Source of the DNA: Chrysophaeum taylorii
Taxonomy: Eukaryota > Sar > Pelagophyceae > Pelagomonadales > Pelagomonadaceae
Direction: 5' to 3'
Length of the DNA stretch: 64,000 nucleotides
Assembly (NCBI GenBank): GCA_029834535.1
Contig: JAQMWT010000053.1
Span: 1-64,000 of the forward strand
The translations under genes and the position numbers were made by a program. Position 1 is the first letter of the stretch. Each line of letters starts with the position of its first letter. Of this stretch, positions 7,214-62,141 are shown piece by piece. Below the pieces are notes generated by a model. It did not search any database, was not told the origin of the DNA, and saw nothing but the letters and a program-made list of their open reading frames with translations.

Positions 7214-7215
7214 TG

Positions 7216-7715: not shown

Positions 7716-7753
7716 CTAGTAAGGCCAAGTCGGGTTTTTTTCGGCCTTTTTCT

Positions 7754-14780: not shown

Positions 14781-15480
<700 letters not shown>

Positions 15481-15513
15481 GGGTAAGGATCAGATAGGCC
15501 CTCGAGCTAGGCA

Positions 15514-34955: not shown

Positions 34956-34964
34956 GATCCGTTA

Positions 34965-35822: not shown

Positions 35823-35827
35823 AAAAG

Positions 35828-36085
35828 TTTGGTCAATACTGTGGAAGTTTGAGGAGTAGTGATCAAACTTGTTGACCATACTTACAAGGCTATTAATCAA
35901 ACTTGAAGGGGTGATTGATCAAACTTAATGCAACTTCGGAGTGACCAAACTTAACTGATAAAACTTCTATTGAAAATGACCAAAGTTGTGAATTTTTCCT
36001 TAAACATACATCAAAATCGAGCAAACTTGAAAGAAATTGACCAAACTTATTGACCAAACTTGACCGATCCCAAAATATAATTGCG
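35828..36085. repeat. AT-rich block of GACCAAACTT-like motifs, left arm
   Basis: About a dozen copies of (T/G)ACCAAACTT or GATCAAACTT in one direction, 15-25 bp apart. The matching block in the right arm is 51,355-51,542. Subterminal binding sites of a transposase are one possibility; not proven. Confidence 0.55.
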
Positions 36086-36121: not shown

Positions 36122-36412
36122 TTACGGAGAGAAACCCCTCGTGTAGAGATAGGTGTGAAATGTTCCAGTGTCGCACACATAATAGTGTAGCTCTCTGGAA
36201 ATCTTCAGTACCATCCTGCTGTCAATAGGGCGAGAGACACCGTCGGGTAAGGAAAGTTTGAAGCAGCCAAAGCGGATAATGTCGTGGAGTTCCTTGGCGA
36301 TGGCCTTGAGGTAGGCGTGCCTGTTTTCAGGCGACATACCGTGGAGGCACTTAAGTTTGTATTCGTCAAACGGAAACGTCCGCTCCTTGGACCTTATATT
36401 CGTCAGGACCAA
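36122..36412 (-). pseudogene. Copia-type reverse transcriptase, N-terminal stub
   Basis: AYLKAIAKELHDIIRFGCFK and LPDGVSRPIDSRMVLKI match the opening of Copia-type RTs (W-x-A-x-x-x-E-L..., then lP-x-x-x-x-I-x-x-R-W-V-F-K-I-K). After that the sequence jumps to SRELHYYVCDTGT, whose DNA matches 58,790-58,870 in another relic; that part is 3' tail, not RT. No YxDD motif is present anywhere nearby. Confidence 0.65.
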
Positions 36413-37037
36413 CAGTGGCTGGTGAATTGTAGTTTAACGACGCTGCGGTCGAGGCAGTGTGCGCAACATCGGGATAAGCGGAAACAGCGTCAGTAGGAGG
36501 AGTAGAAGAAGCAGATTCCAGTTGAATATGGATAGTAGGGTCGGCATGTAAGACCTGGGTGATATACTCTGTAGAGACCAGAAGGTATTCCTCCAAGTCA
36601 GCCAGAGATGCAGAATTAGCGCCAAACTCGGAGTAGTTGTGATCGATAAAGCTGGTCGGCGCAAGATACGTAAGTGCATATTGTAAGGATGAAATGCCAA
36701 AGGCAGCAGCGTGCTCAGTGAACGCAGCTAAAAGGGGCTGAGGAATGGGGCACGTAGGTGAGCCATCAGCAGTTAGAAAGGTTGCAGCTGGGATGCTGGA
36801 TGCGCACTCGGCGTGGGCGAAGTAACCATCGACGTGCGGGTAGCGGGCAAGTAAGTGCGCAACGGGAGAAGAAGACGAGCTAACAACGCATGTTCCCCTC
36901 TGAGCAGATAGCAGACCAGAGGATACCACCATTGATATGAAGGGCGGAGAGGGCGGGAGACTTGAACGTAAGAAAGTGGTGGCGAAGATCCCAGCGGAAA
37001 TCGGCGAGTTTGCCACCGGCGGCTTTGTAAGCACCAA
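36366..37037 (-). CDS. Retroelement integrase-RT linker, left copy
   Basis: Continues the polyprotein after the integrase C-terminus in a different frame. Contains LARYPHVDGYFAHAECASS, FTEHAAAFGISSLQYALTYL, and near the end STAASLNYNSPATVGPDEY, the third occurrence of the SLNY motif (36,429-36,440). No known domain recognised in the linker. The first ~45 residues are shadow. Confidence 0.55.
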   Translation of the reverse strand: MVLTKPPVANSPISAGIFATTFLRSSLPPSPPFISMVVSSGLLSAQRGTCVVSSSSSPVAHLLARYPHVDGYFAHAECASSIPAATFLTADGSPTCPIPQPLLAAFTEHAAAFGISSLQYALTYLAPTSFIDHNYSEFGANSASLADLEEYLLVSTEYITQVLHADPTIHIQLESASSTPPTDAVSAYPDVAHTASTAASLNYNSPATVGPDEYKVQGADVSV

Positions 37038-40000
37038 TAGTAGACGCTTGTAGCCGGGCTTGGATAGTTTTCATAGAAGTGGCCTTGCGGGTGTTGGGCT
37101 GTTTGGAACCTGGGACAAGAATGAGGTCATCTTGTGCAAAAAGGTCTTTGTAAGAAGGAAGCAAGGGCGGCGGTGACATAGAGCCAGAATCGTCGGCGAG
37201 AGTGTTAGAAGAGGGAGAAGAGGTAGGAGCAGGGGACGAAGAAGGAGCTGAGGGAGGTGGGGAGTGCCCCCTCTGAGGATGAGGAGTCCGTGTCCCCCTC
37301 TGAATGACATGGTCTTGGATAGCGGCGTGGGGTGTGAGCGAGAAAGGCGCGGGAGGAGCGTGAGGCGGAGGAGCAAGTTCAGGATCAGGAGTAGGATGCT
37401 GGAGCATGTAGAGGAATTGCATCTTGGACGAAACACGAATTTGTCCGTTTTCTGGGTTGAGGACGACGTCGGCGATATGGTCAACGCGTGGGGAGACGAG
37501 CGGGTTTTGCGCGTTGGCGCAACATAGATATAAGTATTTGCGGCGGCACGGTTCCCACTTGTGGTGCTCGTGGGGCTCCAATAGAAGGTAGCATTCAGCG
37601 CCGAAGATCTTGAGCATGTCATGCTGGGGGGTGGTTAGTTGGTTGTAGAGCAGCTGTTGCGGACTTAGGATGGCATGGTGAGCGCGCTCGAGCGTGGCGT
37701 TCGGAAGGAGGTTGTAACTTTGTATGGTGTGTATTACCGCCCAGGGAAACATGATGGCTGGTTCCACGATCTTTGAGCCACGATAATGAGCATTAAGGAG
37801 AGAACGAAGGCGAGTTGAGGAGGCGGAGGCGATGAAACCGATGGGTGACTCAACTTCAATGTTAAAGTGGTGCATGGACGGCGGGAAAGCGATGAGCTGA
37901 ATGCCTTTATCGACGCGGTACGGGGCGGTAATGTGCTGACTAAAATAGGGTTTGAAGGCATCAGAGAAGAGGGTGCGCATGTGCACATTGAGCTGTGTAC
38001 GACAAAAGTCATACACAAAATCCAGAGCTTGAGTGAACTCCGTGGCGTTGGTGGTGCGTGTAAAGTACACCAAGAGAAATTTCGAAATGAGTTCCTTGAA
38101 GACGATAATACGTGTGAAGCCTCTCCATTCGGATGGGATGGTCACATGGCCGCCGTCGCACGCCCAAACTTCGCCGGCCTTGTGAGTTTGCTCAAAAGAG
38201 GGCTTGGTCGGATTGAAGTGCTTGTGCGGGTGGCGCTTGTTGTGTGCGATGCAGTCGGTGCATAAGTCGCGATACGGTATGTCAGAGGCAGAGAAGCCAG
38301 GGCGAGCCAGTACGTTGGGGGCCTTGGCAGCGACGTTGTCGGGGCAGTGGTGCACCCGGTGGAAGCGATTGGCACGTTCTTTGGCGTTGAGGTATTCGGC
38401 AGATCCGTGTGCGAAGGACTTGCGAGGAATGGGATGAGCGGGAATATGACGTTTGCGCCGAACATCGAACTTGAGTTCGGTGTCCAAGGCAGGGGGAGGC
38501 GGTGCATCGTTATCCTGGTGCGCAGCAGGGTCACTTGGAGGTGCATCCTCATCATCACGAGTAGCGAGAGTATCTTCGTAGGACGAAGATATATAGTTTA
38601 ACGACATTTCGGTCAAGCAGTTGCTGGAAATAGACATCATAAAATCTTGTGCCAAAGACAAGGTATCGGTGCTGCACGTGGTGGAGGCCTGATCAAGGGT
38701 CATAAAATTGGATACATAGGATTTCTTCGTCACGGCAGCAGTATGTTGGAAGGTAGGGTCCAACATAAGGGATTTAATATCGGAAACGAGGAGCGAAAGG
38801 TGCTTGTACAGTGTACTGTACGTACCGGCAGGCAGAGCATTGCTGAGCATGTCGCAGCAAAGGTCGTGGCGAAGAGACACGAGGGAAGATTCCCGTTGTT
38901 TGGTGTGGTTGTTAGCACGAATCAAGCCCGGTCGAGTGGGTTGGCGTAATTTCCCGTTGCGAGGGTCGAGTAAAATAATGTTGGCATACCCTCGGACGGT
39001 GGGCAATGGAGCAAGCATGGAGTGGATTTTAGAGCCGAGTTTGCGGTCACTTCCACGAAGGTACCCTATATAGCGACTATGGGATAAGTGGTGATCTTCC
39101 AGAGCAAAATGAGAATCCTTGTAGTCGAAAGAGTTGTCGGTGGCCTTGTAGGTAAGGCAGCCAGGCATCACAAGAGAGCATCTCGACAAGAGCTTTTGTA
39201 TGGCGGTGCCATAGGTGGCAGCGGAGCCAACTTGAGGAAGGGCCTGGACTATCCACAAGTAACCCACAAACGGCTCCAAACATATATATCTGTCCCTGTC
39301 GCGGGGGACGTTGGAGGCATTAAACGTATACGTGCTTCCAAACGCGTCAATGGAAGCATAATATTTGGTGGCGGCGTTCTCTATGGTGAGGTTGCCGTCA
39401 GAATGGTGGCCACCGGTTAGGAAGTGGGTGTTGTGTGATGTTGATGAGGCTGTAAGTAGTAACCTATGTGACGGTTGGTCAGTTTCGAAAACGGTTATGT
39501 AATAGGACACAGGAGTGGGTGAGTTAGTGTGCAATCTGGCAAACACGTTATAGAGGATTGTAAAAGCCTTGACGTGTATAGAATTGGTTGCATGAGGCAG
39601 CGGCTCCATGGAGGAGCGTTTGAAGCACAGCTGATGATAAGTACACTCGGATTGAACAGAGTGAGTACGTTGCTCGTGAGCCTGTTGTGAGTGAAGGCGC
39701 AACAATAACATATTGAGTGTTTCAAGGTCAGCCACAGTAAGCTGAACAGAACCTGTGCGAGAGTAAGGTGCAAACGTTTTAGGAACGGGGACATATGGAG
39801 GATCGGGGAACACCCGGATCCAGTCTTTGGCGATGTGTTTGGGTAGCCAAAGTCGCTTAGGAATGGCTTGTAAGTCATCCACGATCTTTAGGAAGGGGCG
39901 TGGATGGAGGATAGGCCATGACAATATGTTAATTGGTCCAGTAGAATACCTGCGTGCGATGCATATCCATCTTTCTCTAGATTGGTAGTCGCCACAGAGG

Positions 40001-40155
40001 TAGGTCGGGAACCTATCAACAACATCGACACAGTAATCAAGTGTAGCATGGATGAGATTGGCGACAGTTATGTGGTCTTGATGACAGTACTTATGCGGAG
40101 GCGTCATCTCAGCCAGTAGTACCAAGGGCTGGAGTAACTTGATGACTGACAGCAT
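36880..40155 (-). CDS. C5 methyltransferase C-terminal part and Copia-type integrase, left copy
   Basis: 1,091 codons. Residues 13-21 LLAEMTPPH are methyltransferase motif VI (Glu kept), 56-69 contain Q58-S-R-E-R (motif VIII QxRxR), ~85-370 a long target-recognition-like region, 381-400 APLPTVRGYANI, and 433-453 DMLSNALPAGTYSTLYKHL (motif X, with SNALPAG for the usual GNAVP). TEMSLNY lies at ~515. A pre-integrase zinc finger follows (HHC at 602-604, CTDC at 632-635), then the integrase core with D667, D732 and E767 or E769, and a Copia-like tail (MLKIFGAECYLL). A Ser/Pro-rich linker ends the ORF. The ORF start lies inside the methyltransferase: motifs I-IV are at 40,251-40,508, broken off by a deletion. 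Confidence 0.8.
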   Translation of the reverse strand: MLSVIKLLQPLVLLAEMTPPHKYCHQDHITVANLIHATLDYCVDVVDRFPTYLCGDYQSRERWICIARRYSTGPINILSWPILHPRPFLKIVDDLQAIPKRLWLPKHIAKDWIRVFPDPPYVPVPKTFAPYSRTGSVQLTVADLETLNMLLLRLHSQQAHEQRTHSVQSECTYHQLCFKRSSMEPLPHATNSIHVKAFTILYNVFARLHTNSPTPVSYYITVFETDQPSHRLLLTASSTSHNTHFLTGGHHSDGNLTIENAATKYYASIDAFGSTYTFNASNVPRDRDRYICLEPFVGYLWIVQALPQVGSAATYGTAIQKLLSRCSLVMPGCLTYKATDNSFDYKDSHFALEDHHLSHSRYIGYLRGSDRKLGSKIHSMLAPLPTVRGYANIILLDPRNGKLRQPTRPGLIRANNHTKQRESSLVSLRHDLCCDMLSNALPAGTYSTLYKHLSLLVSDIKSLMLDPTFQHTAAVTKKSYVSNFMTLDQASTTCSTDTLSLAQDFMMSISSNCLTEMSLNYISSSYEDTLATRDDEDAPPSDPAAHQDNDAPPPPALDTELKFDVRRKRHIPAHPIPRKSFAHGSAEYLNAKERANRFHRVHHCPDNVAAKAPNVLARPGFSASDIPYRDLCTDCIAHNKRHPHKHFNPTKPSFEQTHKAGEVWACDGGHVTIPSEWRGFTRIIVFKELISKFLLVYFTRTTNATEFTQALDFVYDFCRTQLNVHMRTLFSDAFKPYFSQHITAPYRVDKGIQLIAFPPSMHHFNIEVESPIGFIASASSTRLRSLLNAHYRGSKIVEPAIMFPWAVIHTIQSYNLLPNATLERAHHAILSPQQLLYNQLTTPQHDMLKIFGAECYLLLEPHEHHKWEPCRRKYLYLCCANAQNPLVSPRVDHIADVVLNPENGQIRVSSKMQFLYMLQHPTPDPELAPPPHAPPAPFSLTPHAAIQDHVIQRGTRTPHPQRGHSPPPSAPSSSPAPTSSPSSNTLADDSGSMSPPPLLPSYKDLFAQDDLILVPGSKQPNTRKATSMKTIQARLQASTIGAYKAAGGKLADFRWDLRHHFLTFKSPALSALHINGGILWSAICSEGNMRC

Positions 40156-40250
40156 GCTGTCGAAAAGAGAATCGTCCAGCAGGCTGTGTAAGTCTTCTGT
40201 CTTATGCTGCTTTAGTAGATTCCTGTTCGTACAGGGAGGAGTAATCTCAA

Positions 40251-40508
40251 TTATATCACAATAAAATTTGCGCCACAGACTAGGTGAAGGTGGTTAATAA
40301 AGGCGGGGAGAGATCCAAATAATAATACTGTAGGGAAACGGTGGCGTAACATACGAACAGGCGTATCATCAAACTCAACAACAACATGTACTTTGATATT
40401 TAAGCCTAAGTCATTAGTGGCTTGAGACAGGGACGCTGGGGTTGACAAACCAGAACAAAGTAACATGACAGAGGGTTTGCGAAGATTGGGCTCTTGTGAG
40501 AGAAACAC
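40251..40508 (-). CDS. C5 methyltransferase motifs I-II, left copy
   Basis: VMLLCSGLSTPASLSQATND corresponds to the S-adenosylmethionine-binding motif I, and VHVVVEFDD to motif II with its acidic residue. A 14 bp deletion relative to the right copy near 40,280 breaks the frame before motif IV. Confidence 0.7.
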   Translation of the reverse strand: MFLSQEPNLRKPSVMLLCSGLSTPASLSQATNDLGLNIKVHVVVEFDDTPVRMLRHRFPTVLLFGSLPAFINHLHLVCGANFIVI

Positions 40509-40706
40509 TGGGCGCGAGAGGATTCAGGTTAATGGCGGTGTGTGTTGCTGGACAAACTTGTTATGTTTCCGAAGATTGAGAACCAAAGGACGAATCCACG
40601 GGTGATCTGGTAAAACTCTTTTGAGTATATAATTGTAATATGCCAGTAGACCCCTGTTTTCATGGTATCGCTTGAGCGGAAATGCGAGGGAGCGAAGTTC
40701 GAGTTG

Positions 40707-41861
40707 CTAGCCGCGAGCGATCTTGTAGGTGAGACAAGGGAGAGCAAGTAAATTAGCTGCTATGTAGTGTATGGGAATACGTACATCTTTGTCTATGCGG
40801 CTCGTGACAGCGCTGAGCTTTGGCTCGGATCGATCATTGAACACAGTGGTCAGGTTCGACTGGTTCCACTCGAGCATGCTCAGGATAGCGAGATGTCGGT
40901 CGGGCACTGGCTGAAGACATAAAGCGAAATCGATCTTAACATAGCCAACTTGTGGATGATCTGGTAGGGGAACAACTATGTTACGCGTTAACATCATGTG
41001 TGAGGCACGTTGTTGTCCAGTGGCAGTTTGAATAACAATCGGCGCGTATTTGGAGTCCAGTGGAATAATATGGTTTGGTATTGCAAAATCATACGTGGAC
41101 ATCAAGGATATGGTAGCACAAGAGTCAATATATAGAAAGGAACAATGTTGAGGGACACTGTTTACCTTCATATAGTTGGTTAGGAGTGCATTTTCCGAAT
41201 CCGGGCAAGTAGCGGAGAGGTTGGCAGTGAAGAAGTTCTCCAGAAATAACATGAAATTTGGAATGATGATCGGTTGAACAGGTGGTGATGGTTCGTCAGC
41301 CTCATCAGCCATGCCGTGTTTCTCATCAAATGACGATAGCGAAGTCTGATCGACATCCCTTTTGGTTTCGGCTTGTGGTGGTTGGTTGATGGCAGATTGA
41401 GCCTGTGAAGATAGCGAGGACAGTAACGCTGGTGGTAAAGCCGAGATGGCGGAAGCAGTAAAGAAGTTAGGCGCAATATCGGAGGGATTACCCTGTGTGT
41501 TGGAGGCATCATTGGTATCTGTAGTAGGAGGAGTTGCCGTTGGGGTGGGGGCAGTAGCAACAGCATGATGTTGTGGCTCCACGTAGTTTAACGACTTTTC
41601 GGTCGAGGATAGATGAGCGTCTACATCATAAATGATGTCTTCTGCGAACATGAGTTGTTCGTTTAGACGAAACAAGTCACTGTTGTCCTCAGTAGATGTC
41701 GTTGACAGAATGTCAGCGGATTGTAATAGAGTCTCAAATAACTTGTTGATATTCCGTTGTAGCTGAGCCGTGGTATCATTATCTGTCACATGCTTCGTAA
41801 GTTCGCTACACTGCTCTTGCAGTGTGTTTAGGGTGTGCTTCGTTCGATCTAATAATTTCAT
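40707..41861 (-). CDS. Gag C-terminus and aspartic protease, left copy
   Basis: 384 codons. The first part is helical Gag (HTLNTLQEQCSELTKHV). STEKSLNYVEP at 41,575-41,605 is the first SLNY site, followed by a Thr/Pro linker. SFLYIDSCATISLMS is the retropepsin active site (D-S-C-A), with TATGQQRASHMM as flap region and HLAILSMLEW as the final hydrophobic motif. The frame continues toward the methyltransferase but stops at CLTYKIARG. It overlaps the Gag ORF by 4 nt only because of a lost C (four versus five in the right copy). Confidence 0.72.
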   Translation of the reverse strand: MKLLDRTKHTLNTLQEQCSELTKHVTDNDTTAQLQRNINKLFETLLQSADILSTTSTEDNSDLFRLNEQLMFAEDIIYDVDAHLSSTEKSLNYVEPQHHAVATAPTPTATPPTTDTNDASNTQGNPSDIAPNFFTASAISALPPALLSSLSSQAQSAINQPPQAETKRDVDQTSLSSFDEKHGMADEADEPSPPVQPIIIPNFMLFLENFFTANLSATCPDSENALLTNYMKVNSVPQHCSFLYIDSCATISLMSTYDFAIPNHIIPLDSKYAPIVIQTATGQQRASHMMLTRNIVVPLPDHPQVGYVKIDFALCLQPVPDRHLAILSMLEWNQSNLTTVFNDRSEPKLSAVTSRIDKDVRIPIHYIAANLLALPCLTYKIARG

Positions 41862-42781
41862 GTTAGATCGAGAGGACCTGTCAAAAGTGCGGGGTAGATT
41901 GGGCGATCATGGGACTGTCCAGTAGTTTTCTTGGTGACGTAAGAATCACCAGAACGATAATACGATAAGTCGCTGCGAGAGAAAGGCTGGCGAGCATCAT
42001 TAGAGTTACGCAAGCGTCTAGCATTGAACGTGGAAGATGTACCAGGTTGAGACGCAGTGATGAAGGCGAGTGTGCTAGCAGTTTGAGTCAGACTTTTGTC
42101 TGCTAAATCCAGCGTATTTGTAAGTAGTAACTTTGGTTTTGGTTGAGGTGTCAATCCTTCGACGTAGGGTTGCCAAGAAACAGGGCGTTCTAAGCGTCTT
42201 TTGTTCGACCCATTTGATACTACATTATATAAGTCTAATGCGCATTCTAAGATGTAGCTAGGGTTGGTAGGGTGACACAATCGTTCAGCGTCTGGCACAG
42301 GCCGAGATGAAGATCGGGTTTCATACATATACCACCAATCTACCCAACCACGATCGTAACGATTGTTGCTGGTTTTATCGGCATAATGCCGATGTATCTC
42401 TTCATAAAATTTTCTACAAAGAGTACCAAAGTCGAATTGAAGGTCAGTCTCTTCCTGGTTAAGTTGGTAATAGATTTGCCTAAATGCTAGGACAGCTTCG
42501 ATAAAGACATGGACATACCAGTTAGGATTATAAACAACAGAGTTAAACTGCTGTTTCAAGTAGGACACATCAGTAGTCGCAACAGACTCGTAGTGACTGA
42601 AGGCAATGAGCATAATGGCTCGAGCCTTGTTGGATAAATAACTTTCGTTATACGCCTCATTGATGGCGGGCCAGGCCGCAAGTGCTGGATTTCCAACACT
42701 TTCAAGATTGAAATAAGTATGCAAGAATGTAGCATGCGTATTCTGATAAGTGTGCCAGTCAGCAGCAGTTAACGAAAACAT
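41858..42781 (-). CDS. Gag, middle part, left copy
   Basis: 307 codons of capsid-like helical protein: SLTAADWHTYQNTHATFLHT, KARAIMLIAFSHYES, WYVHVFIEAVLAFRQ. No CCHC zinc knuckle. Identified as Gag from its place before the protease. Confidence 0.6.
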   Translation of the reverse strand: MFSLTAADWHTYQNTHATFLHTYFNLESVGNPALAAWPAINEAYNESYLSNKARAIMLIAFSHYESVATTDVSYLKQQFNSVVYNPNWYVHVFIEAVLAFRQIYYQLNQEETDLQFDFGTLCRKFYEEIHRHYADKTSNNRYDRGWVDWWYMYETRSSSRPVPDAERLCHPTNPSYILECALDLYNVVSNGSNKRRLERPVSWQPYVEGLTPQPKPKLLLTNTLDLADKSLTQTASTLAFITASQPGTSSTFNARRLRNSNDARQPFSRSDLSYYRSGDSYVTKKTTGQSHDRPIYPALLTGPLDLT

Positions 42782-43136
42782 AGTAACAGGGGCACGAACA
42801 CGGGTGTCAAAAGCTAATGCTTTCGGGCGCGCGCGATTTAAGATTCGTTCCTCTTCTAAAAAACGAACATTGATTTCAGGACGTAATGCCTTGGCTTCAT
42901 TGTCGTAACAGACAGTAGCTAGCTGAGCTACTTCTGCATCAGGTAAATTGGGAAAGCTTCATTGGTGAAATGCCATTCCTGATACTCAGGGGGCAATTCA
43001 TCAACAACTAAACGGAGATCAGCAGCCCTATCGGTGTTCCATTTCAGAAAAACGCGATCGAGAATTTGATTCCGGAGGATAGTATGTCCGCACCTGTGAT
43101 CGTCTTGGGTGCGGCTCGTGCTGCGTGTTCTGCCAT
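42782..43136 (-). pseudogene. Gag N-terminus, left copy, broken
   Basis: It starts ATG at 43,136 (MAEHAARAAPK). About 170 bp present in the right copy are deleted after ADIL (near 43,075), and one C is lost near 42,955. The remaining text matches the right copy. Confidence 0.65.
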
Positions 43137-43425
43137 AGCAGTTGACGGGGAACCAATGGGTTCAGTCACGCAGTTGACACTGTCTAGACATTCTAAGGGG
43201 GTCTGTCTATCGGTGTCTATGTACACTCATTCGTTATCGATGGAAAAATGTCTATTTGACAACTGTGCAAGCTGTGAGTCCAGAGTAGTGTCGCTAAGCG
43301 TAGTCACTCATGGCAGCTGGTTATTTTTGGTGCTCTCAAGGAGCTTGTTAGGTGCATTGCCATGGAATGTACGAGTGGACGTACCCAAAATATTCCATAA
43401 CATGTGTGCAAGAGTACTGGTTGCA

Positions 43426-43979
43426 GAGAAATCTGCTGCCTCTTATCCTTATCCGTCCGTTGAGAACGTGATCTCTTCCTTACCCTTCTTCTTCCTTTCT
43501 ACACAATCAAATAGTCCTCTGATTTGTGCTTAAGCTCATCATCATGGTCTAGCGCGTCCCGAGGTATTTGGCACTATACACTTTACCTTTCTCGTGTAGT
43601 TCTAGATGCCGCCTGTCGTGTTCTGAGGATATAGGGAACATACCTTTTCATTCCCCGAATTAAATACTTCCAGACGTTCATGATGAGACGGGATGGTTTC
43701 CCAGGTGACTTACCACTGCTGGCTAAATGCTCTGCAGGTTATGGGCCCAGGCGGGTCCCTGAGAAACCATGTGTTAAAACGTGCACGTAACGTATGGGTA
43801 TTGGGCCGTTACCGCGCCGGCCCAGCCTCGCCACGTAAGCACGCTTGTGAATACAACGCCATTACCATTGGGCTGTATATGATACTCTTTGCACACGTGA
43901 TCGTGTAACCTTGTGTGCACCTGTTCATAGTATCGTATTGTCATAACAATGTTGATGTGTGTGTAATTGGCTAACCTGT
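43426..43979 (+). other. LTR-like core of the palindrome
   Basis: Single-copy core between the arms. The part 43,445-43,760 (GTGATCTCTTCCTTACCC, GGTCTAGCGCGTCCC, GAGACGGGATG) matches the inverse of 61,000-61,260. GGTTATGGGCCCAG at 43,738 matches the inverse of 58,440-58,460. All lie directly upstream of Gag-bearing sequence, as a 5' LTR and leader would. Its direction fits the right copy. No complete LTR pair is present, so ends are undefined. Confidence 0.5.
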
Positions 43980-44256
43980 ACTCTTGCACACATGTTATGG
44001 AATATTTTGGGCACGTCCACTCGTACATTCCATGGCAATGCACTTAACAAGCTCCTTGAGAGCACCAAAACTAACCAGCTGCCTGAGTGACTACGCTTAG
44101 CGACACTACTCTGGACTCACAGCCTGCACAGTCGTCAAATAGACATCTTTCCATCGAAAACGATGAGTGTACATAGACACCGACAGACAGACCCCCTTAT
44201 AATGTTTAGACAGTGTCAGCTGCGTGACTGAACCCACACGTTCCCCGTCAACTGCT

Positions 44257-46527
44257 ATGGCAGAACACGCAGCACGAGCCGCACCCAAGGCGATCACAGG
44301 TGCGGATATATTGAAGCTCGAAGCTCCTGTAGTTGAGTTTCTTAACGACGGAAATCGATTTCAGCTTCAGACTCGCAAGGTATCCTTGCAAATCAAGCAC
44401 ATTAAGCAATTGTTACGGTCCAGTCATGCCGATGCCTTCCTCGAGTACGACTCGTACGAAGCATATACTCGGTCATGCAAGGACTACGAGATCCTCCGGA
44501 ATCAAATTCTCGATCGCGTTTTCCTGGAATGGAAGACCGACAGGGCTGCTGATCTCCGTTTAGCTGTTGATGAACTGCCCCCTGAGTATCAGGAATGGCA
44601 TTTCACCAACGAAGCTTTCCCCAACTTACCTGATGCAGAAGTAGCTCAGCTAGCTACTGTCTGTTATGACTGTGAAGTCAAGGCATTACGTCCTGAAATC
44701 AATGCCCGTTTCTTAGAAGAGGAACGAATATTAAATCGCACGCACCCGAAGGCATTAGCTTTTGACACCCGTGTTCGTGCCCCTGTTACTATGTATTCTT
44801 TAACTGCTGCTGACTGGCACACTTATCAGAACACGTATGCTACATTCTTGCATACTTACTTCAATCTTGAAAGTGTTGGAAAACCAGCACCTGCGGCCTG
44901 GTCCGCCATCAATGAGGTGTATAACAAAAGTTATTTACCCAACAAGGCTCGCGCCATTATGCTCATTGCCTTTAGTCACTACGAGTCTGTTACGACTACT
45001 GATGTGTCCTACATGAAACAGCAGTTTAACTCTGTTGTTTATAATCCCAACTGGTATGTCCATGTCTTTATTGAAGCTGTCCTAGAATTTAGGCAAATCT
45101 CTTACCAACTTAACCAGGAAGAGACTGACCTTCAATTCGACTTTGGTACTCTTTGTAGAAAAATCTATGAAGAGATACATCGGCATTATGCCGATAATAC
45201 CAGCAACAATCGTTACGATCGTGGTTGGGTAGATTGGTGTTATATGTATGAAACCCGATCTTCATCTCGGCCTGTGCCAGAAGCTGAACGATTGTGTCAC
45301 CCTACCAACCCTAGCTACATTTTAGAGTACGCATTAGACTTATACAATGTAGTATCAAATGGGTCGAACAAAAGACGCTTAGAACGCCCCGTTTCTTGGC
45401 AACTCTATGTCGAAGGTTTGTCATCTCAACCAAAGCCAAAGTTACTACTTACAAATACGCTGGATTTAGCAGACAAAAGTCTGACTCAAACTGCTAGCAC
45501 ACTCGCCTTCATCACTGCGTCTCAACCTGGTACATCTTCCACGTTCAATGCTAGGCGCTTGCGTAACTCTAATGATGCTCGCCAGCCTTTCTCTCGCAGC
45601 GACTTATCGTATTATCGTTCTGGTGATTCTTACGTCACCAAGAAAACTGCTGGACAGTCCCATGACCGTCCAATTTACCCCCGCACTTTTGACAGGTCCT
45701 CTCGGTCTAACATGAAATTATTAGATCGAACAAATCACACCTTAAACACCCTGCGAGAACAGTGTAGTGAACTTACGAAGCATGTGGCAGATAATGATAC
45801 CACGGCTCAGCTACAACCGAATATCAACAAGTTATTTGAGACTCTATTACAATCAGCTGACATTCTGTCAACGACATCTACTGAGGACAACAGTAATTTA
45901 CTTCGTCTAAACGAACAACTCATGTTTGCAGAAGACATCATTTATGATGTAGACGTTCATCTATCCTCGACCGAAAAGTCGTTAAACTACGTGGAGCCAC
46001 AACACCATACTGTTGTCACTGCTCCCACCCCAAAGGCAACTCCTCCTACTACAGACACGAAGAATGCCCCCAACACACAGGGTAATCCCTCCAATATTGT
46101 GCCTAACCTCTTTACTGCTTCCGCCATCTCGGCTTTACCACCAGCGTTACTGTCCTCGCTATCTTCACAGGTCCAATCTGCCCTCAACTTACCACCACAA
46201 GCCGAAACCAAAAGGGATGCCGATCATACTTCGCTATCGTCATTTGATGAAAAGCACGGCATGGCTGATGAGGCTGACGAACCATCACCACCTGTTCAAC
46301 CGATTGTCATTCCAACGAATCTGCTATTGCTGGAGAACTTCTTCACAGCCAGCCTCTCCACTACTTGCCCACATTCGGAAAACGCCTTCCTCGCCACCTA
46401 CAAGAAGGTAAACAGTGTCCCTCCACATTGTTCTTTTCTATATTTTGACTCTTGTGCTACCATCTCATTGATGTCCATTTACGATTTTGCAATACCTAAT
46501 CACATTATTCCACTGGACTCCAAATAA
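44257..46527 (+). CDS. Gag and aspartic protease N-terminal part, right copy
   Basis: ATG 44,257 (MAEHAARAAPK); an upstream in-frame GTG at 44,224 is less likely. About 755 residues: Gag to ~490, a helical region, SSTEKSLNYVEP (45,967-45,996), a Thr/Pro linker, and the retropepsin motif FLYFDSCATISLMS near 46,437-46,478. The frame ends in the TAA made by a SINE insertion (LDSK then stop). The left copy shows the intact continuation IVIQTATGQQ. No zinc knuckle or NLS recognised. Confidence 0.78.
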   Translation: MAEHAARAAPKAITGADILKLEAPVVEFLNDGNRFQLQTRKVSLQIKHIKQLLRSSHADAFLEYDSYEAYTRSCKDYEILRNQILDRVFLEWKTDRAADLRLAVDELPPEYQEWHFTNEAFPNLPDAEVAQLATVCYDCEVKALRPEINARFLEEERILNRTHPKALAFDTRVRAPVTMYSLTAADWHTYQNTYATFLHTYFNLESVGKPAPAAWSAINEVYNKSYLPNKARAIMLIAFSHYESVTTTDVSYMKQQFNSVVYNPNWYVHVFIEAVLEFRQISYQLNQEETDLQFDFGTLCRKIYEEIHRHYADNTSNNRYDRGWVDWCYMYETRSSSRPVPEAERLCHPTNPSYILEYALDLYNVVSNGSNKRRLERPVSWQLYVEGLSSQPKPKLLLTNTLDLADKSLTQTASTLAFITASQPGTSSTFNARRLRNSNDARQPFSRSDLSYYRSGDSYVTKKTAGQSHDRPIYPRTFDRSSRSNMKLLDRTNHTLNTLREQCSELTKHVADNDTTAQLQPNINKLFETLLQSADILSTTSTEDNSNLLRLNEQLMFAEDIIYDVDVHLSSTEKSLNYVEPQHHTVVTAPTPKATPPTTDTKNAPNTQGNPSNIVPNLFTASAISALPPALLSSLSSQVQSALNLPPQAETKRDADHTSLSSFDEKHGMADEADEPSPPVQPIVIPTNLLLLENFFTASLSTTCPHSENAFLATYKKVNSVPPHCSFLYFDSCATISLMSIYDFAIPNHIIPLDSK

Positions 46528-46664
46528 CTAACTAACTAACTTCAGACCTCTCCCGAGCATGGGAGCCAGGCCGGACCGACAGGTGCCAGTCCGGAATCAC
46601 GGGCCTGTAGACGAGGAGCGCCGAAAGGTCGGTCGGCGGAGAGTGACCATCAAGCTTGTCGCTA
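46527..46664 (-). repeat. 5'-truncated SINE-like element in the protease frame
   Basis: ~138 bp starting with (CTAA)n and CTTCAGACCTCTCCCGAGC, the inverse of the SINE 3' end. The left retroelement copy has the uninterrupted site (CTCCAAATACGCGCCGAT, inverse near 41,040). Only TA is repeated at the ends, so a long target duplication is absent or lost. Confidence 0.75.
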
Positions 46665-46713
46665 CGCGCCGATTATTATTCAAACAGCCACTGGATAACA
46701 ACGTGCCTCACAC

Positions 46714-47187
46714 ATGATGTTTACACGTAACATTGTTGTTCCCCTACCAGATCATCCACAAGTTGGCTATGTTAAGATCGACTTCGCTTTATGTCTTCAG
46801 CCAGTGCACGACCGACATCTCGCTATCCTGAGCATGCTCGAGTGGAACCAGGCGAACCTGACCACTGTGTTCAATGATCGAGCCGAGCCAAAGCTCAGCG
46901 CTGTCACGAGCCGCATAGACAAAGATGTACGTATTCCCATACACTACATAGCAGCTAATTTACCGGCTCTCCCTTGTCTCACCTACAACATCGCTCGCGA
47001 CAAGCAACTCGAACTTCGTTCCCTCGCATTTCCCCTCAAGCGATACCATGAAAACAGGGATCTACTGGCATACTACAACTACCTACTCCAAAGAGTTTTA
47101 CCAGATCGCCCGTGGATTCGCCCTTTGGTTCTCAATCTTCGGAAACAGAACAAGTTTGTTCAACAAAACACGCAGCCATTAACCTGA
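46714..47187 (+). CDS. Protease C-terminal part and linker, right copy
   Basis: Resumes after the SINE with the flap region MMFTRNIVVPLPDHPQVGY, then HLAILSMLEWNQ and the linker LELRSLAFPLKRYHENRD. Ends TQPLT at a stop just before the methyltransferase block; one base of shift joins them. Confidence 0.65.
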   Translation: MMFTRNIVVPLPDHPQVGYVKIDFALCLQPVHDRHLAILSMLEWNQANLTTVFNDRAEPKLSAVTSRIDKDVRIPIHYIAANLPALPCLTYNIARDKQLELRSLAFPLKRYHENRDLLAYYNYLLQRVLPDRPWIRPLVLNLRKQNKFVQQNTQPLT

Positions 47188-47202
47188 CTACTCTCACGCC
47201 CA

Positions 47203-47994
47203 GTGTTTATCTCACAAGAGTATAATCCCCGCAAGCCCTCTGTCATGTTACTTTGTTCCGGTTTGTCAACTCCGGCGTTCCTGTCTCAAGCCACTAATGA
47301 CTTAGGCTTAAATATCAATGTAAAAGTTGTTCTTGAGTCTGATGATACGCTTGTTCGTATGTTACGCCACCGTTTCCCTACTGTATTATTATTTGAATTT
47401 CTCCCCGCCTTTATTAACAATCTTCACCTAATTTCACCAGATGAAAGGCGCAAGTTCTATTGTGATATAATTGAGATTACTCCTCCCTGCACGAACAGGA
47501 ATCTACTAAAGCAGCATAAGACAGAAGACTTACACAGCCTGCTAGACGATTCTCTTTTCGACAGCATGCTGTCAGTCATCAAGTTACTCCAGCCCTTGGT
47601 ACTACTGGCTGAGATGACGCCTCCGCATAAGTACTGTCATCAAGACCACATCACAGTGGCCAACCTCATCCATACTACACTTGATTACTGTGTCGATGTT
47701 GTTGATAGGTTCCCGACCTACCTCTGTGGCGACTACCAATCTAGAGAAATATGGATATGCATCGCACGCAGGTATTCTACTGGACCAATTAAAGCATTGT
47801 CGTGGCCTATCCTCCATCCACGCCCCTTCCTAAAGATCGTGGATGATCTACAAGCTATTCCCAAGCGCCTTTGGCTACCTAAACACGTATCCAAAGACTG
47901 GATCCGGGTGTTCCCCGATCCTCCATATATCCCCGTTCCTACAAACGTTTGCACCTTACTCTCGCACAGGTTCTATTCAGCTTACTATGGCTGA
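47203..47994 (+). CDS. C5 cytosine methyltransferase-like domain, N-terminal part, right copy
   Basis: Best preserved catalytic part, about 263 codons. Residues 14-30 VMLLCSGLSTPAF (motif I), E45 in KVVLESDD (II), CDIIEITPPCTNRN at 87-100 with the candidate nucleophile C96 (IV; most enzymes have P-C-Q or P-C-N), LLAEMTPPH with E137 (VI; usually E-N-V), and GDYQSREIWICIARR at 177-190 (VIII). Then PRPFLKIVDDLQAIP, like the segment after motif VIII in bacterial enzymes. Together these fit a C5 DNA methyltransferase inside the polyprotein; activity is unknown. The ORF start is not the protein start. Confidence 0.75.
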   Translation: MFISQEYNPRKPSVMLLCSGLSTPAFLSQATNDLGLNINVKVVLESDDTLVRMLRHRFPTVLLFEFLPAFINNLHLISPDERRKFYCDIIEITPPCTNRNLLKQHKTEDLHSLLDDSLFDSMLSVIKLLQPLVLLAEMTPPHKYCHQDHITVANLIHTTLDYCVDVVDRFPTYLCGDYQSREIWICIARRYSTGPIKALSWPILHPRPFLKIVDDLQAIPKRLWLPKHVSKDWIRVFPDPPYIPVPTNVCTLLSHRFYSAYYG

Positions 47995-48129
47995 CCTTGA
48001 GTCCCTCAATATGTTACTGCTTCGCCTTCACTCACAACAGGCTCACGAGCAACGTACTCACTCTGTTCAATCCGAGTGTACTTATCATCAGCTGTGCTTT
48101 AAACGCTCCTCTATGGACCCGCTAACCCA

Positions 48130-48663
48130 ATGCAACCTACCCTATACACGTCAAGGTTTTTTACAATCCTCTATAACTTGTTTGCCAGCTTACACACTAA
48201 CTCACCCACTCCTGTGTCTTATTACATAACCGTTTTCGAAACTAACCAACCGTCACACAGGTTACTACTTACAGCCTCATCAACATCACACAACTCCCAC
48301 TTCTTAACTGGTGGCCACCATTCTGACGGCAACCTCACCATAGAGAACGCCACCACCAACTATCATGCTTCCATTGACGCTTTTGGAAGCACGTATACGC
48401 TCACTGCTTCCGACATCCCCCGCGACCGGGACAGGTCCATATATTTGGAGCCGTTTGCGGGTTACTTGTGGATAGTCCAAGCCCTCCCTCAAGTTGGCTC
48501 CGCTGCCACCTATGCTATGGCACCGCCATACAAAAGCTCTTTTCCAGATGCTCTCTTGCGATGCCTGGCTGCCTTACCTACAAAGCCACCGACAACTCTT
48601 TCGACTACAAGGATTCTCATTTTGCTCTGGAAGATCACCACTTATCTCATAGTCGCTATATAG
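48130..48663 (+). CDS. Methyltransferase target-recognition-like region, right copy
   Basis: Frame-shifted continuation: FTILYNLFASLHTNSPTPVS, HRLLLTASSTSHNSHFL, YLWIVQALPQVGSAATY. It corresponds to residues ~198-315 of the left ORF. After ~48,520 the frame is wrong and the next block takes over. Target-recognition role inferred only from its place between motifs VIII and IX. Confidence 0.55.
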   Translation: MQPTLYTSRFFTILYNLFASLHTNSPTPVSYYITVFETNQPSHRLLLTASSTSHNSHFLTGGHHSDGNLTIENATTNYHASIDAFGSTYTLTASDIPRDRDRSIYLEPFAGYLWIVQALPQVGSAATYAMAPPYKSSFPDALLRCLAALPTKPPTTLSTTRILILLWKITTYLIVAI

Positions 48664-50134
48664 GGTACCTTCGTGGAAGTGACCGCAAACTCGGCTCTAA
48701 AATCCACTCCATGCATGCTCCATTGCCCACCGTCCGAGGGTACGCCAATATTATTTTACTCGACCCCCGCAACGGGAAATTACGCTACCCCACTCGACCG
48801 GAGTTGATTCGTGCTAACAACCACACCAAACAACAGGAATCTTTCCTCTTGTCTCTACGCCAAGACCTTTGCTGTGACATGCTCAGCAATGCTCTGCCTG
48901 CCGGTACGTACAGCACTCTGTACAAGCACCTTTCGCTCATCGTCGCCGATATTAAATCCCTTATGTTGGACCCTACCTTCCAACACACTGCTGCCGTGAC
49001 GAAGAAATCCTATGTGTCCAATTTCATGACCGTTGACCAAGCTTCCACCATGTGCAGCACAGATACCTTGTCCTTGGCACAATCTTTTATGATGTATATT
49101 TCCTGCAACTGCTTGACCGAAATGTCGTTGAACTATATATCTTCGTCCTACGAAGATACTCTCGCTACTCGTGATGATGAGGATGCACCTCCAAGTGACC
49201 CTGCTGCGCACCAGGATGACGACGTACCGCCTCCCCCTGCCTTAGACACCGAACTCAAGTTCGATGTTCGGCGCAAACGGCATATTCCCGCTCATCCCAT
49301 TCCTCGTAAGTCCCTCGCACACGGATCTACCGAATATCTCAATGCCAAAGAACGTGCCAATCGCTTCCACCGGGTGCATCACTGCCCCGACAACGTCGCT
49401 GCCAAGGCCCCCAACGTACTTGCTCGCCCTGGATTCTCTGCTTCCGACATACCATATCGCGACTTATGCACCGACTGCATCGCACACAACAAGCGCGACC
49501 CGCACAAGCATTTCAATGCGACCAAGCCTTCTTTTGAGCAAACACACAAAGCCGGCGAAGTCTGGGCGTGCGACGGCGGCTATGTGACCATCCCATCCGA
49601 ATGGGGAGGCTTCACACATACCATCGTCTTCAAGGAACTCATCTCGAAATTTCTCTTGGTGTACTTTACACGCACCACCAACGCCACGGAGTTCACTCAA
49701 GCTCTGGATTTTGTGTATGACATCTGTCGTACACAACTCAACGTGCACATGCGCACCCTCTACTCCGATGCCTTCAAGCCCTACTTTAGCCAGCACACTA
49801 CCTCCCCGTACCGCGTCGATAAGGGCATTCAACTCATCGGCTTCCCGCCGCACATGCACCACTTTAACTTTGAAGTTGAGTCCGCCATCGGTTTCATCGC
49901 CTCCGCCTCCTCAACTCTCCTTCGTTCTCTCCTTAATGCTCACTATCGTGGCGCCAAGATCGTGGAACCAGCCATCATGTTTCCGTGGGCGGTGATACAC
50001 ACCGTTCAAAGCTACAACCTTCTCCCGAACGCCACGCTCGAGCGCATTCATCATGCTATCCTGAGTCCGCAACAGCTACTCTACAACCAACTCAACACTC
50101 CCCAACATGACATGCTCAAGATTTTGGCGCTGAA
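48468..50134 (+). CDS. Methyltransferase motifs IX-X and integrase, right copy
   Basis: The open frame extends to 50,849 but is real only from ~48,515 to ~50,134. Contains RGSDRKLGSKIHSM, LPTVRGYANIILLD, DMLSNALPAGTYSTLYKHL, TEMSLNYISSS (49,113-49,145), the HHC...CTDC finger, the integrase core WACDGGYVTIP, LYSDAFKPYF and FNFEVESAIG. A base lost near 50,130 (IL instead of IFG) moves the rest to the next frame. Confidence 0.75.
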
Positions 50135-51241
50135 TGTTACCTTTTATTGGAGCCCCACGAACACCACAAGTGGGAACCGTGCCGCCGCAAATACTTATAT
50201 CTCTGTTGCGCCAACACGCAAAACCCGCTCGTCTCCCCACGCGTCGACCATCTCGCTGACGTCGTCCTCAACCCTGAAAACGGACAAATTCGTGTTTCGT
50301 CCAAGCTGCAATTCCTCTACATGCTTCAGCATCCTACTCCGGATCCTGAACTTGCTCCTCCGCATCACGCTCCTCCCGCGCCTTTCTCGCTCACACCCCA
50401 CGCCGCTATCCAAGACCATGTCATTCAGAGGGGGACACGGACTCCTCATCCTCAGAGGGGGCACTCCCCACCTCCTTCAGCTCCTTCTTCGTCCCCTGCT
50501 CCTGCTTCTTCTCCCTCCTCTGACGCTCTCGCCGACGATTCTGGCTCTATGTCACCGCCGCCCTTGCTTCCTTCTTACAAAGACCATTTTGCACAAGATG
50601 ACCTCAGTCTTGTTCCAGGTTCCAAACAGCTCAACACCCGTAAGGCAACTTCTATGCAAAATATCCAAGCCCGGCTGCAAGCGTCTACTATTGGTGCTTA
50701 CAAAGCCGCTGGTGGCAAACTCGCCGATTTCCGCTGGGATCTTCGCCACCACTTTCTTACGTTCAAGTCCCCCGCCCTCTCCGCCCTTCATCTCAATGGT
50801 GGTATCCTCTGGTCTGCTATCTGCTCAGAGGGGGTACATGCGTTGTTAGCTCGTCTTCTTCTCCCGTTGCGCACTGACTTACTTGCCCGCTACCCGCACG
50901 TCGATGGTTACTTCGCCGACGCCGAGTGCGCATCCAGCATCCCAGCTGCAACCTTTTTAACTGCTGATGGTTCACCTACGTGCCCCATTCCTCAGCCCCT
51001 TTTATCTGCGTTCACTGAACACGCTGCTGCCTTTGGCACTTCTTCCTTACAATATGCACTTACGTACCTGGCGCCGACGAGCTTCATCGATCACAACTCC
51101 TCCGAGTTTGGCGCTAATTCTGCATCTCTGTCTGACTCGGAGGAATACCTTCTGGTCTCTACAGAGTATATCACCCAGGTCTTAAAGGCCGACCCTACTA
51201 TCCATCCTACTGGAATCTGCTTCTTCTACCCCTCCTACTGA
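50135..51241 (+). CDS. Integrase C-terminus and integrase-RT linker, right copy
   Basis: EPHEHHKWEPCRRKYLYLC completes the Copia-like integrase tail, followed by a Ser/Pro-rich stretch, RLQASTIGAYKAAGGKLADF and the linker YPHVDGYFADAECASS. It stops at FFYPSY. The third SLNY site lies just past this stop in another frame (51,301-51,312, TSLNYSSP). Confidence 0.65.
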   Translation, partial: CYLLLEPHEHHKWEPCRRKYLYLCCANTQNPLVSPRVDHLADVVLNPENGQIRVSSKLQFLYMLQHPTPDPELAPPHHAPPAPFSLTPHAAIQDHVIQRGTRTPHPQRGHSPPPSAPSSSPAPASSPSSDALADDSGSMSPPPLLPSYKDHFAQDDLSLVPGSKQLNTRKATSMQNIQARLQASTIGAYKAAGGKLADFRWDLRHHFLTFKSPALSALHLNGGILWSAICSEGVHALLARLLLPLRTDLLARYPHVDGYFADAECASSIPAATFLTADGSPTCPIPQPLLSAFTEHAAAFGTSSLQYALTYLAPTSFIDHNSSEFGANSASLSDSEEYLLVSTEYITQVLKADPTIHPTGICFFYPSY

Positions 51242-51354
51242 CGCTGTTTCCGCTTATCCCGAAGTCGCGCACACTGCCTCGACCGCAAGTCGGCGCAACG
51301 TCGTTAAACTATAGTTCACCAGCCACTGTTGGTCCTTGCTCGATTTTGATGTAT

Positions 51355-58883: not shown

Positions 58884-60540
58884 TCATGTCACAACATAGA
58901 TCTGGCGGGAATGACAAAAAAAAGTGATTTGGTGCGCTGTGAAATTGTTCGTGCGTACCAGCTTATGGCGTGAGCAGTGCCGTAAGCGATTAACGCGAGC
59001 ATCGAGCACAATTATATTTGCAGAGCCTCTAATGGTAGGCATTGGGGCAAATAAAGAATGCACCTTGGCGCCCATTCCTTTGTCACTGGAGTTGATGTGG
59101 CCCAGGTATATGCTTTGATACAGATGCAAATCTGCGAGGGTGAATGTGCGATCAATAAACTGGAATCGATCTTCCTTGGGATAGTGAACAAGGGAGTCCT
59201 GTAGAGATTGACAACTGCGAGATACGAGAGTGCTGATTAAGCGACGAGTGTCAGCAGATTCCTTTGAAATTGTGATGTGCTTCACAAAGCCACAAGAATC
59301 CTGTGGCGAGCTCTATAACGGGGGTTTTCTCAACAGAGGCATCATGGTGCGAGTGCAGTGTATACGTTTGCCGAACGTGTTCACTGTGGCTTGGTACTTG
59401 GAGCTTGGATTGGTGATGGTGATGTCTCCGCCAGTGTGTCTACCTCCTGTGAGGAAGTCGATGGGGGTGTAGAAGATTCGTTGATGAATAGCCTGTGGGA
59501 CAATTGGTCAGCTTCGAAAATAGTAATACGAAAGGACACAGGTTTGGTTGTTTTGTCTGGAAAGAGACGACCAAAAGCGTTGTGTAAAAGCACAAATGCT
59601 TTCAGTTCTATGTTCTTGACACCACACAATCTAGGGGCTCTCTTGAGGTCCTGTTAAAACCTAAACGGAAGTCCGACACATAGGACATGTCGTCTTGTGA
59701 AGGCTGCTCAAGCGTCTTTTGAGAGCGCAGGCGTGTGAACAACAGTGTGAGCGTCTATAGCTCAACCATTGGCAAGCGCACAGAACCAGTGCGGCTAATT
59801 TCGCAAAAGGTCTCTGGCTTTGCTACATAGGCAGCGTCGGGGGGAACTCGAGTCCAGTGCTCATCGACAAATAATTGGCGATCAAGGGAATTGCTGTGGT
59901 CGGCAATATCAACAAATGCAGTAACGTGCTTGTTGGGCCGGCTGGGGATCCAATGGACCAGTGTTGTATCTCCGTACAACGAGTATCCATCTCTCACGAA
60001 ACTGAAAGTCTCCACACGTTTAACAAGGAAATTGATCGCAAACACCGACTGTATAGAGGACGGAAGAAAATGATAGATTGGCGATCCGGATATGGCACTT
60101 ATATGAGGCCAAATGAGGGGGTGTCATTTCAACCAGCAGCACCTGTGGCTTGAGGAGTTCCAAAGTACTTACAGCACTTAGAAATGGCGAATCGTCCATA
60201 TCTCGCTCGAATGTGGATATGGCTCTCCCGTTGATAACGTTGCGCTTAGTACATGGGGCTGTCAGCTCCGCGACCTCCGTATAAAATTCGGACCGTTTCT
60301 TGCTCGGAGGCACGATGCAGGTTCTTCAAGAACATTGGGAGAGACGGGAAATTTTCGATAGAGTTCCCGAAACGCGACCTAAGCGCATGTACAAGCATTT
60401 CATCAACATCAACGACAACTTTGACAGTGATGTTGGAACGTAAGTCGGGAGTTGCACGAGCAAGGGACGCTGGGGTACATAGACCGGCGCAAAGAAGCAT
60501 GACTAGAGTCATAGAGGAGGCGGTAGCTTCTTGCGAATCG
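58884..60540 (-). pseudogene. Diverged C5 methyltransferase-like relic
   Basis: Four or more frames. VMLLCAGLCTPASLARATPD (motif I), VKVVVDVDE (II), VAELTAPCTKRN (IV, Cys kept), VLLVEMTPPH (VI), FQFRERWILVVRRYNTG (VIII, QxRxR) near 59,990, then RTGSVRLP and HSLFAPMPTIRGSANIIVLD before motif IX. It is joined upstream to Gag with the protease region missing, and downstream to the 3' tail with integrase and RT missing. Conservation of the motifs in so diverged a copy shows the domain was an old part of the element. Confidence 0.7.
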
Positions 60541-60589
60541 TTATAAACCTGAAGCAACAACTATAATAATGGACTTACGTCGGTGTGGC

Positions 60590-61514: not shown

Positions 61515-62141
61515 TCATACGAGGAAACACACTTCTTTTTGCTCGTGTTCCGACGTATGATCATCAGCTGCATTAATAGCCTGGACATCATAGTCTTCAT
61601 TGGTACGTGTCTCCAGCGTAGTAGTCAGACGACAGTTGTTAATATGGGTAGAAGACAAGACCGGCATGATACTATGCGTGATAAAAAAAAAAAAAAAAAA
61701 AAAGAAGACGAGCATGCTGGAGATAGTCTCCATGGACTCAAGAGGCGTGCTGTTATAGTCCAATCTGAGCTCCACGAAGGGAACAAGGAAGCGTGACAAC
61801 ATCTGACATAGTCGGGTATTGTCTGATGTACGTTGCGAGTTGAGGAGGAATCGCGCGACAGTAAGGAATTCGGGCCTTATGCCCAGCCCATAGTAGACGA
61901 CCGTCGTGGACGATACGGTACCATTAGGGGTGGTGTCCGTGAGCCATACGTCATCCGGTACTGAGTAGTCAGTCTCTAGGAGGATGCAATGTTGGGCGGT
62001 TGAGTTTCCATGGAGAGGTGGGTCCTTTGAGATCGTTAGTGTCCAGTGGGCGCCGAGCAAATACAGTGGTGTTGCGGTGCTTGGAAATAGCATCACTAGA
62101 GGTCGAGCCGTTGTATCTACAAGAATGACCGAAGTAGCCAA
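61515..62141 (-). pseudogene. Possible protease-region relic of another retroelement copy
   Basis: SVILVDTTARPLVMLF has a D-T-T-A that could be a retropepsin site, followed by hydrophobic strands (LYLLGAHWTLTI, HCILLETDYSVPDDVW). A 22-nt A run (61,681-61,702 region) makes poly-Phe in this frame. The assignment is weak; it rests on position between an SLNY-like remnant (62,854) and an LTR-like fragment. Confidence 0.3.

Follow-up and report, generated by a model that had tools for sequence, protein, structure and literature searches.

How a cytosine methyltransferase comes to lie inside the polyprotein of a retrotransposon, and what it may do there, is the question raised by a 64,000-nucleotide stretch of the pelagophyte alga Chrysophaeum taylorii (assembly GCA_029834535.1, contig JAQMWT010000053.1, positions 1 to 64,000; hereafter the window). 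A previous sequence-only reading had described here two inverted copies and a diverged relic of a Copia-type element with a C5 cytosine methyltransferase between protease and integrase. The current analysis supports that reading on its main point: judged by their sequence, these elements are Ty1/Copia long terminal repeat (LTR) retrotransposons carrying a C5 methyltransferase at this position, and we hold the anatomy described below with high confidence. Two features had gone unnoticed, namely the occurrence of three abundant families in one genome, here termed A, B and B', and an in-frame TGA codon between protease and methyltransferase.

Element type, copies and abundance

The type of the element was established from open copies elsewhere in the genome, for which 70.8 Mb on 697 contigs were scanned; a search of the genome for intact copies had been proposed. 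Copy L039, a member of window family B, is a single 1691-residue frame with the methyltransferase motifs at its start, followed by matches to rve (residues 784-866), SH3 (968-1007) and RVT_2 (1431-1651; 7.7e-42). Copy L042, which belongs to family A, is a single 1952-residue frame in which a protease-like stretch (DGGA at residue 82) is followed by DNA_methylase (349-475; 1.1e-7, 32 bits at a cut-off of 22), rve (1016-1110) and then RVT_2 (1686-1933; 1.6e-38); the rve scores of both copies are below the Pfam cut-off. RVT_2 was also matched in L043 (9.5e-28) and L045 (5.1e-32). The Copia type, as originally claimed, follows from RVT_2 together with the order protease-integrase-reverse transcriptase, integrase preceding reverse transcriptase in both L039 and L042. 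One family A copy, L042, is bounded by LTRs at 360-567 and 9789-9984 (208 and 196 nt) with a 5-bp CTCAC duplication on each side; in family B no LTR pair was found in the window copies or L039, and L040 presents only a 75-nt repeat and short low-complexity matches in place of such a pair. Approximately 200 residues between integrase and reverse transcriptase (~1180-1400 in L039, ~1450-1660 in L042) have no Pfam match.

In the window, copy 1 of family B (36200..43422, minus strand) has lost its end about 50 nt inside the reverse transcriptase, as deduced by alignment to the longer copies L039 and L040, while copy 2 (43416..51336, plus strand), delimited likewise by alignment to longer copies, is inverted, 3'-truncated before the reverse transcriptase and holds a 116-nt insert (46528-46643). 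Both copies are broken by frameshifts in addition to their 3' truncation. Their inverted arrangement was borne out by 16 inverted pairs at 34.8-51.5 kb, 15 of which come from copies 1 and 2 or from the sequence flanking them (91-96% complementary) and could be mapped onto the longer copies; the flanking match extends past both copies in short stretches (35824-35969 with 51401-51546).

Reading along the minus strand of copy 1, the gag and protease region, in two overlapping frames (40707..42958, protease DSCATISL at 41103-41126), is followed by the in-frame TGA (40524..40526), methyltransferase motifs I to VIII in two frames (39967..40463), a stretch matching a dioxygenase-like barrel (39202..39768; residues 256-444 of the L039 model, mapped via gapless alignment), a motif X-like SNALPAG (38824..38844), which aligns with LANAVPH of family A, and finally the integrase (HHC, D, D, E) with an SH3-like stretch (37573..38364). 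The same order is found on the plus strand in copy 2: gag and the start of the protease (44203..46527, DSCATISL at 46447-46470), the TGA (47185..47187), motifs I to VIII (47248..47754), the barrel-matching stretch, approximate because its frames are broken (47954..48525), SNALPAG (48885..48905) and integrase with SH3-like stretch (49365..50155). The placement between protease and integrase was therefore recovered in both copies. The protease motif reads DSCAT in both; its usual form is DSGA.

Three families of these elements are abundant in this genome. In a profile search, 123 of 474 candidates were scored, giving 57 DNA_methylase places; two of these are host genes, and all eight other such places that were examined (L003-L008, L042, L043) align with family A. 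The motif I-II query from the window matched 150 of 150 scored (the best 150 of 633 candidates, window included), more than chance would give, and a piece of the B' relic did the same (150 of 150; the best 150 of 630 candidates); no place of one list lay within 500 bases of a place of the other (best 150 each). The family A barrel query returned 150 rows (the best 150 of 240 candidates), with certain places accounting for more than one row. Among the best 150 of 1670 RVT_2 candidates, a same-strand match lay 2.5-6.5 kb upstream in at least 45 for B and at least 24 for B', and 2-7 kb upstream in at least 2 for A. A, B or B' was found upstream in at least 71 of the 150, a lower bound in which the family A comparison took in 44 of the 150 rows; matches on the opposite strand and downstream numbered 0/150 each. 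Only the best candidates were scored in these genome searches. The rows are related and the counts hence not independent, a point that weighs against the explanation favoured below.

Identity of the methyltransferase block

The block is a C5 methyltransferase by direct match in family A, and by relation and motifs in family B; for the window it is the relatives in the same genome, not the window frames, that confirm the assignment. Pattern searches placed motif I of copy 1 at 40434-40463, II at 40365-40382, IV at 40219-40242, VI at 40093-40113 and VIII at 39967-39987 (minus strand), and in copy 2 motif I at 47248-47277, IV at 47479-47502, VI at 47608-47628 and VIII at 47734-47754 (plus strand), with motif II reading VVLESDD, outside the pattern used. 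Motifs I, IV (PC), VI (E), VIII and X are present in the order of C5 cytosine methyltransferases, as previously described for the two copies; the ENV of motif VI in known enzymes reads EMT in B. The diverged third relic that had been claimed within 36880..50134 lies outside it, at 58.9-60.6 kb, and represents the methyltransferase part of the related family B' (58887..60560, minus strand): motifs I (60468-60497), II (60399-60416), IV (60239-60262) and VI (60113-60133) were located, while the patterns used yielded neither VIII nor X. A further relic, of the methyltransferase part of an element related to family A, lies at 61518..62700 (minus strand).

Among the element proteins scanned, DNA_methylase matches were confined to family A (3 of the 12 members in one family A alignment, A5). 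The first ~200 residues of the family A model are predicted, by Foldseek among other methods, to adopt the S-adenosylmethionine (SAM)-binding fold of HaeIII, HhaI, 3g7u and DNMT1/MET1, and the top-ranked structures are DNA methyltransferases (HaeIII, Z 11.7). Against a profile of B and B', family A scores above 2000 shuffles.

Several observations count against this assignment. The window frames, for which a profile search had been proposed, gave weak integrase matches (rve and SH3_retrovirus, below cut-offs) and no Pfam match to a methyltransferase; the B block matched no methyltransferase sequence in Pfam, NCBIfam or PDB, and none of the B or B' proteins scanned matched DNA_methylase. The comparison of A with B by hhalign is weak (E 0.0093, probability 4%), and the profile search linking B placed 8yf3 first and then an antibody chain (0.076) ahead of HhaI (0.12-0.27). 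The fold match of A is not specific by Z alone, fibrillarin reaching 10.5 as compared to 11.7 for HaeIII, and the predicted models are of low overall confidence (mean predicted local distance difference test score, pLDDT, of 42 for B and 36 for A). A match to the C5 fold, whose absence had been named as grounds for rejection, was obtained for family A and not directly for B alone. That the block is no methyltransferase but a Copia domain in which the motifs occur by chance would accommodate the lack of a direct profile match in B, but we consider it scarcely credible, given that family A, whose block has the equivalent position in an element of like type, passes the Pfam cut-off, matches the SAM fold and exceeds the shuffles in comparison with B and B'. 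The best PDB match of a profile built from B copies and relic pieces, 3-dehydroquinate synthase (0.08), was taken as chance.

The methyltransferase is, on the sequence comparisons made, under purifying selection. Ratios of nonsynonymous to synonymous divergence (dN/dS; pairwise, ratio of means) were 0.19 for the catalytic part, 0.19 for the linker, 0.22 for the barrel and 0.30 for motifs IX-X in family A (31 rows, one place twice), and 0.12, 0.30, 0.31 and 0.24, respectively, in family B (30 rows). Individual B pairs gave 0.07-0.28, and for the B' methyltransferase three pairs with a dS of about 1 gave 0.04-0.08 and two closer pairs 0.06-0.14. Integrase dN near 0.19 in two pairs with L040 is an outlier, probably because the frame of L040 shifts near its end. 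As dead copies raise dN/dS, the active lineages probably experience stronger selection than these values show. A captured gene without function, spread along with the element as a passenger, would be in keeping with the broken state of both window copies, the stops or frame breaks in some other copies, and the ratio of 0.40-0.42 in L042/L043, the sole close A pair, a value that also weighs against the explanation favoured below. Such a passenger is nevertheless very improbable in view of ratios of 0.12-0.31 over A and B, those of the B' pairs with dS near 1, and the retention of catalytic residues across families that are only 18-48% alike.

Capture of the block from the host's Dnmt2 or DNMT5 was considered and rejected (best E 1.6 by BLASTP and 0.45 by phmmer, with a set of five sequences). 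The host genome carries a gene on C634 with a full-length PF00145 match, which we presume to be Dnmt2-like partly from its opening motif, and a methyltransferase-SNF2 gene of DNMT5 type on C621; DNMT5 is recorded in pelagophytes, according to the portions consulted of PMC9998398 and PMC3145265. Among 5.8 billion proteins, neither residues 290-870 of the A-family polyprotein (E 1e-3) nor a family A alignment (A6; E 0.01) found a match among the best 7997 candidates, an absence that is weak since the search scores only candidates sharing 5-residue words.

The embedded barrel, expression and substrate

The part that the sequence-only reading had called target-recognition-like does occupy the usual place of a target-recognition domain, which lies between motifs VIII and IX; what had escaped notice is its predicted fold. 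Residues ~256-444 of the B model form a double-stranded beta-helix resembling 2-oxoglutarate (2OG)-dioxygenases (pLDDT of the block mostly 42-84), a barrel of ~190 residues whose structural matches include ALKBH5 and FTO. Structure prediction, which had been suggested as a check, accordingly returned the SAM fold in A and this barrel in B, and we regard it as probable that the methyltransferase encloses a barrel with the fold of 2OG-Fe(II)-dioxygenases of the AlkB/TET/PHD2 type. Some results detract from it: the barrel is seen in the B model only, being transferred to family A by alignment where the A model has a pLDDT <40, and a barrel alignment (A7) matched 0 of 177635 PDB sequences at E 10, while 0 of its 13 members matched a 2OG family in Pfam. 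A search of viral contigs with the barrel alignment gave 105 pattern matches, none of which is a relative. In the host, one weak TET place (E 0.009, under cut-off) and 14 AlkB-type places (12 above cut-off) were detected.

A barrel that serves as a target-recognition domain only, a dioxygenase-fold scaffold whose chemistry was lost or never present, would make these elements plain DNMT-bearing Copia elements, and we would give this an even chance. Its position argues for it, as does the higher dN/dS of the barrel compared to the catalytic half in B (0.31 versus 0.12); moreover, B and B' carry L/F and T/N at the positions aligned with the H and D of the family A HLD, and a distal His is not evident in B. 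Family A, on the other hand, keeps HxD (H in 29/32, D in 31/32, the middle residue being L or S) followed by a conserved His and Arg, with two candidate distal His and basic residues, and GGHHSD, a further HxD-like stretch, occurs in B but not in B' (its second H and its D each in 29/29). Because the HxD...H triad has candidates in A and is replaced in B and B', the barrel was not classed as an oxygenase, and an active oxygenase in family A appears doubtful. More tentative still is the idea that family A encodes a two-step enzyme in one polypeptide, which would write 5-methylcytosine that the barrel then oxidises (TET-like, to 5-hydroxymethylcytosine or further). The complementary DNA (cDNA) or RNA of the element would in that event be hypermodified prior to integration, much as phages disguise their DNA, and B and B' would be relatives that keep the writer, with the barrel reduced to a reader or guide.

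The in-frame TGA is present in all 34 B rows (32 distinct places) and in 4/4 B' copies. The rows are related, but with the proteins of B and B' no more than 48% alike, a stop that served no purpose should have decayed. We infer that it is read through. In the 34 B rows the TGA is followed by A (22 rows), C (11) or T (1), and in the 4/4 B' copies by C, a lack of uniformity that does not favour read-through. Re-initiation at an ATG was rejected, the next codon being ATG in only 10/34 B rows (ATA 9, ATC 3, CTA 11, TTA 1). In L042 and L043 the frame runs from protease to methyltransferase without a stop, so the route of Pol expression differs from that of B and B'; gag (1300-3033) and pol (2997-8852) of L042 overlap in different frames, with pol in the -1 frame.

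The explanation we favour, which as a whole seems reasonably likely, is that of Copia elements with a split, self-marking methyltransferase: motifs I-VIII would form the SAM-binding and catalytic half, IX-X would close it, and the barrel would lie between. In B and B' the enzyme would start just past the TGA and, with the rest of Pol, be made via read-through in lesser amounts than Gag-protease. Its most likely function would be to mark the element's own new nucleic acid, that is, the cDNA while it is still in the particle and not yet integrated; the barrel would aim the methyltransferase and in family A perhaps also oxidise the methyl mark. For cDNA as the substrate that is marked, we put the chances at about half.

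No strong trace of DNA methylation is evident in the sequences of the copies, which is at odds with such marking. C/T differences between copies at CG are 1.13-1.25 times those at CHH and 1.2-1.6 times those at CHG, transversions are also raised at CG in B and B', and the CpG deficit is mild (0.79-0.97 versus 1.23-1.42 in host stretches). This weak trace would suit a methyltransferase acting instead on RNA in the particle, either the element's genomic RNA or the tRNA primer, as Dnmt2 marks tRNA. As part of Pol the enzyme would be packaged with RNA, given what is generally known of Copia particles, several structures that match the barrel have RNA or single strands as their substrate (ALKBH5, FTO), and the Foldseek matches of the A model include human DNMT2. 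We nonetheless judge an RNA substrate unlikely, since family A shows no significant similarity to the host Dnmt2 (BLASTP E 4.2; phmmer 0.46, five sequences) and the structures ranked first for its model are DNA methyltransferases, neither point being decisive.

Related elements and neighbouring sequences

Retrotransposons bearing DNMTs are already known, and it is the embedded dioxygenase-like barrel that adds interest. In the portions consulted of PMC5890265, the carriers are LINE, DIRS and Gypsy elements of dinoflagellates and charophytes, and Symbiodinium Copia elements are without a DNMT domain; a Copia carrier is therefore a distinct case, as had been surmised. KnitGypsy-Dnmt3 of Klebsormidium nitens is likewise an LTR element whose Pol includes a C5 methyltransferase that retains its key residues and is under purifying selection, but it is a Gypsy element of Dnmt3 type for which those portions mention no embedded dioxygenase-like domain. 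SymbioDIRS-Dnmt3 and SymbioLINE-Dnmt of Symbiodinium resemble the present elements in reaching hundreds of copies in an alga with the methyltransferase in the coding region, and differ in being DIRS and LINE elements; the SymbioDIRS-Dnmt3 enzyme is reported to methylate CG (PMC5890265). AlkB-bearing Gypsy elements of Phalaenopsis orchids are also LTR retrotransposons with a 2OG-dioxygenase-type domain, which differs in being an additional open reading frame of clear AlkB similarity, with RNA demethylase activity in vitro; the consulted text mentions no methyltransferase and reports no domain gain for plant Copia elements (PMC9289625). HaeIII, HhaI, 3g7u and DNMT1/MET1 share motif order in addition to the fold, the elements here having instead the ~190 barrel residues at the target-recognition place and, in B, EMT for ENV. 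A DNA transposon with a ParB and N4/N6-methyltransferase protein is described in the consulted part of PMC12477816.

One sentence of PMC12344493, in which no embedded barrel is mentioned, puts DNMT3 members in 'LTR Copia and DIRS', citing PMC5890265; it may refer to the Gypsy case, and were Copia really meant, the mere combination of DNMT and Copia would not be new. Among open-licence papers, the consulted portions described no Copia element that combines a C5 methyltransferase with a dioxygenase-like domain. That the host is a stramenopile and the carrier a Copia element, that three families share one genome and that a barrel is embedded in the enzyme would together show that such capture is recurrent, and carriage is notable in that DNMTs are the kind of enzyme that hosts use for silencing retrotransposons. 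The models suggest that these elements may chemically mark nucleic acid themselves; what they gain from modifying bases would become directly testable, the domains being small enough to express, and an active barrel would make for a retrotransposon-borne writer and oxidiser in one chain.

The 116-nt insert of copy 2 is 99% complementary to 34841-34956, outside the element, and is a recent small mobile insertion or conversion. Beside copy 1, at 35051-35730, a 209-nt repeat occurs in six overlapping copies with start-to-start spacings of 202, 54, 107, 54 and 54. A repeat of ~950 nt (13879-14788, 54268-55223, 55313-56232 and 56328-57271, three being in a row) is 88-96% like L040 9032-9977, the sequence after its reverse transcriptase. 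A plastid contig of this genome carries a 488-residue rbcL, whose best 120 matches (of 7999 scored) include Pelagococcus subviridis at 93% and others reaching 97%, which points to a pelagophyte-like host. In the window, a gene-sized duplication (42-4876 and 7953-13564) shares sequences of minus-strand host reading frames, and long simple repeats, with runs of SLSL and RERE in their frames, occupy 14702-15589.

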